Source of the DNA: a bacterium
GTDB taxonomy: Bacteria; Patescibacteriota; Microgenomatia; Curtissbacterales; GWA2-41-24
Length of the DNA stretch: 47,486 bases
Reading direction: 5' to 3'
Assembly: GCA_021813125.1 (NCBI GenBank)
Contig: JAKALT010000008.1
Location: forward strand, 1 to 47,486
Part shown: positions 652 through 5,083 of the stretch, piece after piece
Position numbering within the stretch: position 1 is the first letter of the stretch
How the letters are laid out: every line of letters starts with the position of its first letter
Translations under genes and position numbers: made by a program
Notes under the pieces: model-generated
The model's database searches: none
The model's input: the letters and a program-made list of their open reading frames with translations, nothing else
What the model was told of the DNA's origin: nothing

Positions 652-978
652 ATGCTAAATTTTCTTGAAAAAGCTTCGGCATCCACAGTTGGTTTTCTTT
701 CCGCAGCAGGCACGGTTCTGTACTGCGGCTTAATCGCCTTATTTTTCAACTTTATGGCCAAATCCACCGCAAAACCCGGATTTTTCGGCCTCTTTTTAAT
801 GCTTCTTTTATTCGTATTTTCGGCTGCCGTAACAGGAACAATGGTTTTTGGGTTTCCGGCCTACCTTGCCGTGGTTAAAAACAAGGTCAAAGTTGCTTTA
901 ATTACCCTTGCTTTTACCCTCCTTTATACCTTGGCAATAATAATAATCGCCGCATTTTTAATCATCCTGTTTGCCTAA
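652..978 (+). CDS. Small integral membrane protein, 108 aa
   Basis: This unknown protein is dominated by three or four hydrophobic segments: roughly residues 12-32 (GFLSAAGTVLYCGLIALFF), 44-68 and 80-106. It is very likely an inner-membrane protein. I chose the ATG at 652 over the upstream start at 577 because a GGAG sits at 635-638, because the product then begins with a soluble helix followed by membrane helices, and because the upstream extension has an atypical composition. It is divergent from the gene at 138-545. It has no recognisable catalytic motif and the function is unknown. Confidence 0.6.
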   Translation: MLNFLEKASASTVGFLSAAGTVLYCGLIALFFNFMAKSTAKPGFFGLFLMLLLFVFSAAVTGTMVFGFPAYLAVVKNKVKVALITLAFTLLYTLAIIIIAAFLIILFA

Positions 979-994
979 ATCACAAACGTTTAAG

Positions 995-1024
995 TTTGCA
1001 TAATCTTGCCGCTTACCTTATAAT
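995..1024 (+). promoter_or_regulatory. Promoter of the structured RNA
   Basis: TTTGCA (995-1000), an 18-nt spacer and a perfect TATAAT (1019-1024) precede the folded region. The predicted start is near 1031-1033. Confidence 0.65.
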
Positions 1025-1030
1025 GACAGG

Positions 1031-1328
1031 TCGGGGAATCAATAAATATTGATTCCAATTAACAACAAAATAAGAGTGATGCTAGAACTGTCCCTGATCA
1101 AATGATTGGGGATAAGCGCCCATAATCCTGGGCAAATGAAGTTTCTGTATCTAAAGATACAGAAGTCCGTAAAGATCTAATAAATTAGGCCATATCGGAA
1201 CTCTGCAGCTGTAGTCAAACAGCGATGGAGATTTCATAAAGCATCCGACAACCCGGAATTATCGCAACGGGTGCCAAGGAAGCATTTTTTTCTTCGTACC
1301 CCTCACCGTTTTCGGTGTGGGGTTTTTT
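1031..1328 (+). ncRNA. Candidate structured RNA, ~300 nt
   Basis: A promoter, a chain of hairpins and an intrinsic terminator enclose about 300 nt with no credible ORF. Helices seen by eye are: GGAATCAATA with TATTGATTCC (1035-1056); TCCCTGATCA with TGATTGGGGA (1091-1112, two wobble pairs); GCCC with GGGC (about 1118-1132); TTCTGTATCT with AGATACAGAA (1143-1164); an outer CGGA/TCCG (1196-1199 and 1244-1247) enclosing GCTGT/ACAGC (1208-1223) and CTC/GAG; and ACCCG with CGGGT (1251-1272). GGGT at 1269-1272 can instead pair with ACCC at 1298-1301, which overlaps the 5' arm of the terminator. This gives a switch-like alternative fold. I could not match it to RNase P RNA, tmRNA, SRP RNA, 6S RNA or a known riboswitch. 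It could be a free ncRNA, or a riboswitch leader for the lysozyme-like gene that starts 80 nt after the terminator. Confidence 0.6.
1299..1328 (+). terminator. Intrinsic terminator of the structured RNA
   Basis: The stem is CCCCTCACCG (1299-1308) against CGGTGTGGGG (1313-1322), ten positions with one T-T mismatch and a TTTT loop, followed by six T residues (1323-1328). Confidence 0.85.
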
Positions 1329-1408
1329 AATGAAAATTTCCTGAAAAATGCACTGATTTTTGGGCGCCCTCAAAACCCGTTCGGCAAACTCAGGGTAAAG
1401 GAGAAATT

Positions 1409-2206
1409 ATGGCGCAAAAAGAAAACATAGCTGAAATAGGCAAAAACGTAGGCAAGCTGGCAGCAGCCGGTGCCGTTCTCTATGGTGGCATTTACTTTAT
1501 GGAAAATAGAAGCTACCCGAAAGAACCGACCAAACCGGAAACCGCCACAGCTCAGGTGCTAACGGAAGCAGAAGTTGCCGAGCTTAGAAATTACGAAAAG
1601 CTCATGGCCGAAAGCTCCATCGCATTACCAACACAAACACCAACCGCAGCTTCAGCTATTTTTAAAATTCAATCGCAAGAATTGGCAACTTCTGCAAGGT
1701 CTGCCCCCGAAATGACAGCAGCCCAAAAAGCCCAAATTGGAAAATACATGGCCGAACTTCCCACAGTCATCGAAAAAATAAGGCCGACGCCGGCCGAAAT
1801 CGAGGATCTCGAAATTTATTATCCGATCTACCGTGCCGGTCAGGACCGCTTTGGCACACCATGGTATTTAACCTGGATTGTTCACGAAGCGGAAAGTACG
1901 GCTTCCAGAAACCCCAATGCTTTTGATGAAAATTGTATTCAATGTGGTGCCATGCAAATTGATTCGCGTTATCACCCAAAGGAGGATATCGACCGTGCAA
2001 ATGTCGGCTTGGAATATCTCATGGCAATCCCGACAAGATATGCAAAATGGGATACTACAGACATAATTTGGGGTGCATCAGCTCTCAAAGAATACGTTGA
2101 TCAAACAGGAAGCGTATTGGGCGGACTTAAAAGGTACTCTGCTGCTGGCCCAGCACAAAATCGCTATCAAAAATATTTACTTCTTCAATCCGAACTTGGA
2201 AATTAA
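1409..2206 (+). CDS. Membrane-anchored lysozyme-like (SLT-type) protein
   Basis: The 265-aa protein probably cleaves or binds peptidoglycan outside the cell membrane. Residues about 16-31 (KLAAAGAVLYGGIYFM) form a single N-terminal membrane anchor. A Pro/Thr/Ala-rich linker follows to about residue 130, and then a lysozyme/soluble-lytic-transglycosylase-like domain fills residues 135-265. Within it IVHEAES places a Glu where the catalytic acid is expected, followed by CGAMQID, which resembles the GLMQI motif of the SLT family, and a conserved GAxxL-type helix. Two nearby Cys (ENCIQC) could form a disulfide. AAAGGAG (1396-1402) is a good ribosome site 6 nt before the ATG. The gene is preceded by the structured RNA and its terminator. 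Family assignment is by motif and is moderately sure. Confidence 0.7.
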   Translation: MAQKENIAEIGKNVGKLAAAGAVLYGGIYFMENRSYPKEPTKPETATAQVLTEAEVAELRNYEKLMAESSIALPTQTPTAASAIFKIQSQELATSARSAPEMTAAQKAQIGKYMAELPTVIEKIRPTPAEIEDLEIYYPIYRAGQDRFGTPWYLTWIVHEAESTASRNPNAFDENCIQCGAMQIDSRYHPKEDIDRANVGLEYLMAIPTRYAKWDTTDIIWGASALKEYVDQTGSVLGGLKRYSAAGPAQNRYQKYLLLQSELGN

Positions 2207-4068: not shown

Positions 4069-4566
4069 TTACCTGGTTACCGAAATTGTAACTCCGGAAA
4101 CCTCGGCAGTGGCAGCAACTGTCACCCTGTTGTCTGTTGCACTGGAAATTACGGTGTATTTTGTATTATAGCTTGCAGCGCCGCAAACTGAACCTGTGGC
4201 AGGAGTACCATTCTTTGGATCTCTAGGCACATCAGCCAAATACATTGTAACAAGCACGGAGCAAAGATCAACTGCAGGATCTGCGCCATTACATGATGCT
4301 GTCGGTTTACAAATCGTGGCCGCAGTACCAGTTGTGGGAATACCCGCCGGTATTGCACCTTTGTTATCTGCGGCGTACTGGTGAATTGCGTTAAGAATTG
4401 CGTTGACGTCGCTTCTCCTCTGCGTATCGTTTGCCTGCTGAAACTGTCTAGTGGGATTGATAGCTACTAAAACTATTGAAAGAAGCACCGTTAAAACACC
4501 AATTACAACAAGAAGCTCAATTAGCGTAAAACCGCCGGAAAACTTGTTTTTAAAAACCTTCTTCAT
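4069..4566 (-). CDS. Type IV pilin-like protein (tandem copy A)
   Basis: The 165-aa prepilin has the leader MKKVFKNKFSGG followed by FTLIELLVVIGVLTVL, a class III signal with the invariant Glu at +5 of the mature protein. Cleavage is expected after the last Gly. The alpha-1 helix continues into NPTRQFQQANDTQRRSDVNAILNAIHQYAADNKG, a sequence typical of Patescibacteria pilins. The C-terminal domain holds four Cys (ATICKPTASCNGADPAVDLC and SVCGAASYN), enough for two disulfides, and ends in beta strands. It is the last gene of the long minus-strand pilus cluster and sits 4 bp after a paralogue. It is probably a minor pilin or alternative major pilin. Confidence 0.85.
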   Translation of the reverse strand: MKKVFKNKFSGGFTLIELLVVIGVLTVLLSIVLVAINPTRQFQQANDTQRRSDVNAILNAIHQYAADNKGAIPAGIPTTGTAATICKPTASCNGADPAVDLCSVLVTMYLADVPRDPKNGTPATGSVCGAASYNTKYTVISSATDNRVTVAATAEVSGVTISVTR

Positions 4567-4570
4567 TATT

Positions 4571-5044
4571 TTATCTGGTAGCTGTTATAGATGCGGTAAC
4601 CTCCCCAGTCGCACTAACAGTAACCCTGTTATCGGTAGCGCTGGAAACAACAGAATAACCGGTATTGTAAGAAGTTGCCCCCGTACACACTGAACTTGCC
4701 GGAGTTTTTGTGCCTACTGTTGGGTCTAGTGGCAAATCAGCAAGATACTTTGTCACCAAATCCGCACAAAGGTTTGCCTGACCGCCTACCGTATCACTAC
4801 CGATGACTTTAGCAGAAGTTCCTATGGCCGAAGGAAGCGCGCCTTTATTATCAACACCGTATTGGTGAATTGCATTTAGAATTGCGTTGACATCGCTCCT
4901 TCTTTGGGTGTCGTTGGCCTGTTCAAATTGTCGTGTGGGGTTAATTGCAACCAGAACTATAGCAAGAAGAACGGTTAACACGCCAATTACAACTAAAAGC
5001 TCGATCAGCGTAAAACCACTCTTCACTTTGGGCAGGAAGCGCAT
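4571..5044 (-). CDS. Type IV pilin-like protein (tandem copy B)
   Basis: The product has the short leader MRFLPKVKSG and then FTLIELLVVIGVLTVL, with Glu at +5. It is paralogous to the downstream pilin: the stretch from NPTRQFEQANDTQRRSDVNAI to the repeated C-terminal DNRVTVSATGEV is nearly the same, while the middle loop has diverged and keeps two Cys. I chose the ATG at 5044. A longer frame from a TTG at 5083 overlaps the upstream stop by 4 nt, but TTGACA (5083 to 5078), a 17-nt spacer and AACAAT (5060 to 5055) form a promoter ending 10 nt before this ATG. With that start the leader has a normal length. It is a likely surface pilin, cleaved by the PilD-like enzyme at 29155-29961. Confidence 0.8.
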   Translation of the reverse strand: MRFLPKVKSGFTLIELLVVIGVLTVLLAIVLVAINPTRQFEQANDTQRRSDVNAILNAIHQYGVDNKGALPSAIGTSAKVIGSDTVGGQANLCADLVTKYLADLPLDPTVGTKTPASSVCTGATSYNTGYSVVSSATDNRVTVSATGEVTASITATR

Positions 5045-5054
5045 GTCTAATTTT

Positions 5055-5083
5055 ATTGTTAAGCAATTGAAAGTCTTTGTCAA
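5055..5083 (-). promoter_or_regulatory. Internal promoter for the tandem pilins
   Basis: On the minus strand TTGACA (5083 to 5078), 17 nt and AACAAT (5060 to 5055). It would let the two pilins be made above the level of the rest of the cluster. Confidence 0.5.

Follow-up and report, generated by a model that had tools for sequence, protein, structure and literature searches.

A conserved pseudoknotted RNA upstream of predicted wall-lytic genes is a strong candidate for an uncatalogued riboswitch class in Microgenomates-type bacteria

Introduction

What is the structured RNA of about 300 nt that lies between a promoter and a lysozyme-like gene in a Curtissbacteria-type genome, and does it control that gene? 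An original prediction, made from the letters of the locus, had proposed a new noncoding RNA or a riboswitch class acting on the gene that starts at position 1409 of the window, i.e., of the whole 47,486-nt stretch of DNA analyzed here, and had named homologues and covarying pairs in relatives as its checks. RNA control of wall-cutting enzymes has a precedent in Actinobacteria, where the ydaO riboswitch is found ahead of wall hydrolase genes, among them rpfA and nlpC, with control at a terminator or at translation (PMC9960051, PMC10117811).

Results

The window RNA extends from a promoter to an intrinsic terminator

The following elements delimit the RNA and the gene behind it.

995–1024, + strand: promoter with −35 element TTTGCA (995–1000), spacer of 18 and TATAAT (1019–1024); 10 of 12 matches in a consensus scan
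1035–1056, + strand: extra 5′ hairpin GGAATCAAT-AAAT-ATTGATTCC, from sequence and fold
1298–1328, + strand: strong intrinsic terminator between RNA and gene
1397–1403, + strand: Shine-Dalgarno sequence AAAGGAG of the gene at 1409, from sequence
1409–2206, + strand: predicted lysozyme-like (lytic-transglycosylase-like) protein of 265 aa, exported or membrane-anchored, from a family motif and weak profile and fold matches

The perfect TATAAT, the six or more hairpins and the strong terminator described in the original prediction were all recovered, the TATAAT together with its −35 element. Positions 1019–1328 fold into more than six hairpins at −103.5 kcal/mol compared with −71.2 ± 4.7 kcal/mol for dinucleotide shuffles (z = −6.9, 0 of 100 shuffles). 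In a genome of the same genus, TATAAT occupies nearly the same place (53 versus 56 nt ahead of the conserved core). The 5′ hairpin at 1035–1056 is confined to the window and this genome and lies outside the core shared by the family.

The whole window gave 0 matches to Rfam 15 families at gathering score, RNase P, tmRNA, SRP and 6S included, and this agrees with the original prediction, which had recognized no known RNA signature. Searches at E ≤ 10 with window positions 950–1420 and five homologous loci, and at E ≤ 1 with four more homologous loci, yielded nothing credible for the RNA. Weak matches for 950–1420 (DapZ, PyrR, SscA, L10 leader and others) were mutually unrelated and far below gathering scores, and we discarded them as chance. 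A literature search found no description of such an RNA.

Homologues occur in three families of one class

When the RNA was compared with 94 relatives by blastn, the same-genus genome aligned at 79% identity and several family members shared short conserved islands. From these homologues we read the core motif GTGATGCTAGAACTRTCC[P2]GGATAAGCGC[P3]GC...AAGCATCCG(A)CAACCCG[P4]CGGGTGC(C)AAGGAAG. A covariance model of the core and a pattern search extended the set to 15 genomes, the window's included, which fall into three families of a single class, i.e., seven of Curtissbacteria type (the window's family), seven of Daviesbacteria type and one from Blackburnbacteria; related genomes among these few homologues share neighborhoods, and the loci therefore do not represent 15 independent events. 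Across 374 genomes of the class, a second covariance model detected 14 members.

Outside the class, a phylum sample of 380 genomes contained no credible member. One further phylum-wide match (G627), the sole one besides the known members, falls within a coding gene and was rejected as spurious. Pattern matches in a collection of named genomes were mostly chance or the same genomes again, and viral contigs had no match to the side-hairpin pattern.

The distribution of the RNA is patchy. In the Daviesbacteria-type family f3 (G055, G071, G102 and others) and family f1 (G003, G010 and others), 7 of the 15 genomes in one family carry it, as do 7 of about 45 in the other, and it was not found in some genomes of 99–100% completeness. 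This suggests loss, horizontal transfer or divergent copies that were missed.

The conserved core is a three-way junction with a pseudoknot

All members share a three-way junction of helices P1 to P3 with the invariant strands UAGAACU and AAGC, followed by hairpin P4; the strand on the 3′ side of P4 forms a pseudoknot with the loop of P3. The window contains these elements at the positions below.

1078–1082, + strand: P1 5′ strand GATGC, pairs with 1241–1245
1083–1089, + strand: junction strand TAGAACT, invariant in 15 of 15 sequences
1090–1113, + strand: P2 hairpin, stem GTCCC to GGGAT; two-sided changes in 5 of 5 counted pairs; recovered unsupervised
1114–1117, + strand: junction strand AAGC, invariant
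1118–1133, + strand: P3 hairpin GCCCA-TAATCC-TGGGC; 100% paired, two-sided changes in 3 of 5 pairs; recovered unsupervised
about 1137–1236, + strand: optional side domain, in which P5 (about 1137–1140 with 1233–1236) surrounds P6 (1143–1164), P7 (1166–1199) and P8
1201–1230, + strand: P8 arm, ending in near-invariant GCTGT-AGTCAA-ACAGC
1241–1245, + strand: P1 3′ strand GCATC, from the alignment of 15 sequences
1251–1272, + strand: P4 hairpin, ACCCG (1251–1255) with CGGGT (1268–1272); 100% paired, two-sided changes in 5 of 5 pairs; columns picked by eye
1278–1282, + strand: pseudoknot 3′ strand GGAAG; across the family 94.7% of cells paired, two-sided changes in 3 of 5 pairs

P1 is 100% paired in the 15 sequences, with two-sided changes in 2 of its 5 pairs. 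The 5′ side of the pseudoknot sits in the P3 loop. Most relatives form five pseudoknot pairs, compared with three of five in the window, where GGA (1278–1280) pairs with TCC (1126–1128); two Daviesbacteria-type members carry the compensated version CCUUC/GAAGG. The side domain is complete in 11 members, reduced to a plain hairpin in G109, and missing in G007, G012 and G014. The compact RNAs of G007 and G014 are about 115–135 nt long.

The gap-free main alignment of 15 sequences was curated by eye, and this curation favors P4 and P5. In it, 97.9% of cells were paired compared with 76.6% after shuffling, and 26 of 39 pairs had two-sided compensatory changes compared with 15.4 in shuffled alignments. 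None of 500 shuffles reached any of these measures, and the signal collapsed when pairing partners were slid by one to three columns. With P1, P2, P3 and the pseudoknot alone, i.e., elements anchored by invariant flanks, 13 of 20 pairs were double-changed. An unsupervised alignment recovered P2, P3 and P8, with 13 of 26 predicted pairs double-changed. Hence the homologues and the covariation that the original prediction depended on both exist, the latter in a hand-curated alignment, and a conserved structured RNA is nearly certain. The locus thus holds a covarying, aptamer-like fold with invariant unpaired nucleotides, one hallmark of riboswitches.

RNAalifold favored a GCU:AGC pairing between the invariant strands (window 1078–1082 and 1114–1117) that would compete with the two inner pairs of P1, perhaps as an alternative state; its columns never vary in the alignment. 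The AGAACU of the core may resemble glmS and the side hairpin box C/K-turn motifs, likenesses on which we base no claim.

The RNA precedes genes for predicted exported, mostly wall-lytic proteins

A gene that encodes a small exported or membrane-anchored protein lies 100–390 nt downstream of the RNA and runs in the same direction in each of the 15 genomes; other neighboring genes differ between the groups. Six partner proteins, the window's included, form one family in which E, GxMQ and Y are conserved in an order like that of lysozymes, and which has a weak profile match to SLT domains. The window protein had no match in Pfam, and the protein-family profile found nothing relevant among PDB sequences. 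Structure prediction for the window protein was poor (pLDDT 34 and 46), and fold matches to a GH23 chitinase, MltF and MltC were weak and came from this low-confidence model.

The remaining partners belong to other types. A Pfam SLT domain scored above cut-off in two of them (G295 and G084), and an RlpA-type transglycosylase DPBB domain was found in three (G005, G040 and G225) at E of about 4e-4, which is under the curated cut-off. The partner in G007 had a weak lysozyme-like match (E 0.06), and that in G014 is its relative. Those in G012 (3D-like) and G173 (lysozyme-like) were assigned by eye only. Judged from these protein sequences, one RNA family probably accompanies several unrelated types of wall-cutting enzyme, some of the assignments being weak. 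A 5′ leader position, co-directional with functionally related genes, is a second hallmark of riboswitches, and the RNA is likely the leader of wall-lytic genes.

The partner genes of G109, G173, G225, G226 and G374 (AUGGAAAG) and of G295 (AUGGAGAG) are of different enzyme types but begin alike, with AUGGARAG (MER), and a twin-arginine-like signal peptide follows in several of them. On their sequences, it looks as if RNA and signal peptide formed one cassette with exchangeable enzyme domains. The GGAAAG of the partner start could pair with UUUUCC of the leader.

Directly upstream of the RNA, two Daviesbacteria-type genomes carry recombinase-like genes, serine-type by their N-terminal sequence (L034 2856–4380 in G109 and L037 2546–4165 in G295). 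In G295, a tRNA gene was called at the end of the recombinase-like reading frame (L037 4038–4109, − strand). Such an arrangement hints that the RNA-hydrolase unit lies next to an integration hot spot.

The segment between RNA and gene differs between families

In all seven Curtissbacteria-type genomes, RNA and gene are separated by an intrinsic terminator, at the same relative position in each. No promoter match was found in the 45–84 nt from terminator to start codon in these seven genomes; expression of the gene presumably needs read-through. A terminator placed in this way before a gene is the layout of an attenuator.

The original prediction had additionally proposed that GGGT (1269–1272) pairs with ACCC (1298–1301) as an antiterminator. 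Both segments are present and complementary, but their pairing fails as evidence for a switch, since shuffling the downstream stretch produced an equal or better helix 183 times in 500. GGGT is moreover the 3′ strand of the conserved helix P4. Throughout the window's family, the best alternative helix was no better than in shuffled sequence, with the exception of G014.

In all eight Daviesbacteria- and Blackburnbacteria-type members, the pseudoknot strand can instead pair with a downstream UUUUCCC-type element, for which G109 carries a compensated change. Taken one by one, these pairings are only moderately unusual (30–107 of 500 shuffles). By eye, we recognized no comparable strong terminator in the Daviesbacteria-type leaders. 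The pairing with UUUUCCC indicates that the expression platform is probably a different one in the Daviesbacteria and Blackburnbacteria types.

Discussion

We consider it probable that the RNA is the 5′ mRNA leader of a wall-lytic gene and serves as the aptamer-like sensor of a cis-acting switch, for which we infer ligand binding and switching. The nascent transcript would fold into the P1–P3 junction and be locked by the pseudoknot that links the loop of P3 to the strand 3′ of P4. This fold would then be stabilized or destabilized by a signal, for which a small molecule is most likely. In the Curtissbacteria type, the outcome would decide between termination and read-through into the hydrolase gene. 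The RNA is hence a strong candidate for an uncatalogued orphan riboswitch class of peptidoglycan-lytic enzymes, and ligand sensing is plausible. The proposal of a new noncoding RNA or candidate riboswitch class for the gene at 1409 is thus supported, with no Rfam match, 15 homologues, covariation and mostly wall-lytic partners.

Candidates for orphan riboswitches from comparative genomics (PMC2864571, PMC7266159) likewise combine covarying structure, a fixed leader position and coherent targets; unlike them, the homologues of the window RNA were found within one Microgenomates-type class. With transcription attenuators that have leader terminators, the window RNA shares a terminator between leader and gene and the lack of a promoter match after it, whereas it differs in its elaborate conserved pseudoknotted core, and we noticed no leader peptide.

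A leader RNA kept with several unrelated predicted exported wall-cutting enzymes suggests that a dedicated signal governs when the wall is opened or remodeled, and the compact RNA of about 115 nt makes what minimal cells sense before wall cutting directly testable. A more specific version, in which a new riboswitch class senses a wall- or host-derived metabolite (e.g., a muropeptide or nucleotide-sugar precursor) and so gates exported peptidoglycan-cutting enzymes, is a long shot. To name a wall precursor, muropeptide or host-derived compound as the ligand is speculation. A metabolite-sensing class, if true, would let ultrasmall bacteria sense, through RNA, the state of the wall or contact with a host.

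The leader could also act in cis as a sensor of a protein, of temperature or of ions in place of a metabolite. Position, covariation and gene association fit such a leader equally well, and the highly conserved P8 hairpin (GCUGU-ARYCAA-ACAGY across the family) might be a protein-binding site. However, P8 and its domain are missing in four members, and the minimal conserved unit is therefore the junction with its long invariant unpaired strands and the pseudoknot. Such an arrangement is more typical of ligand pockets, and we regard a protein-responsive leader as unlikely, though with a chance worth keeping in mind.

Somewhat more doubtful still is an independent small RNA, terminated at 1328, that would act in trans or bind a protein, with the lytic gene merely as a constant neighbor. 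In the window, the RNA has a promoter and a strong terminator of its own, and the six other family members have terminators too, features that would suit such a transcript. Yet in every one of the 15 genomes the RNA is oriented toward a gene with an exported product, wall-lytic in most cases, while other neighbors vary between the groups; moreover, no promoter match was found between terminator and gene, and by eye no comparable strong terminator was recognized in the Daviesbacteria-type leaders, as described above.

Could the RNA be a divergent form of an RNA class already known to control wall hydrolases, the ydaO c-di-AMP riboswitch (RF00379) being the foremost candidate? Both are structured 5′ leaders ahead of several kinds of wall hydrolase gene, and the actinobacterial ydaO examples lend the idea its appeal (PMC9960051, PMC10117811). 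The window RNA differs by its three-way junction core with the UAGAACU and AAGC strands and the pseudoknot to the P3 loop. The RF00379 (ydaO/yuaA) covariance model remained unmatched even at E ≤ 10 in window positions 950–1420 and five homologous loci. Thirteen of the 15 genomes, that of the window among them, lack the DAC domain (PF02457), and two have it; the same search was positive in 11 of 14 control genomes. Models of c-di-GMP riboswitches did not match the RNA either (whole window at gathering score; window and five loci at E ≤ 10), and GGDEF (PF00990) occurs in 6 of 15 genomes, the window's genome being without it. With DAC in only two and GGDEF in six of the 15 genomes, neither cyclic dinucleotide is likely as a general, self-made ligand. 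The covariance searches and the missing cyclases in most genomes led us to reject divergent ydaO or c-di-GMP riboswitches, and membership in a known wall-hydrolase class is highly improbable.

Chance structure without function, to which the chance-level alternative pairing in the window would conform, is practically negligible, as it is already refuted by strong covariation in 15 homologues of three families with invariant strands.

Besides the RNA, the window contains two adjacent genes on the − strand (4069–4566 and 4571–5083) that encode paralogues of 64% identity with a type IV pilin-like N-terminus (GFTLIELLVVIGVL).
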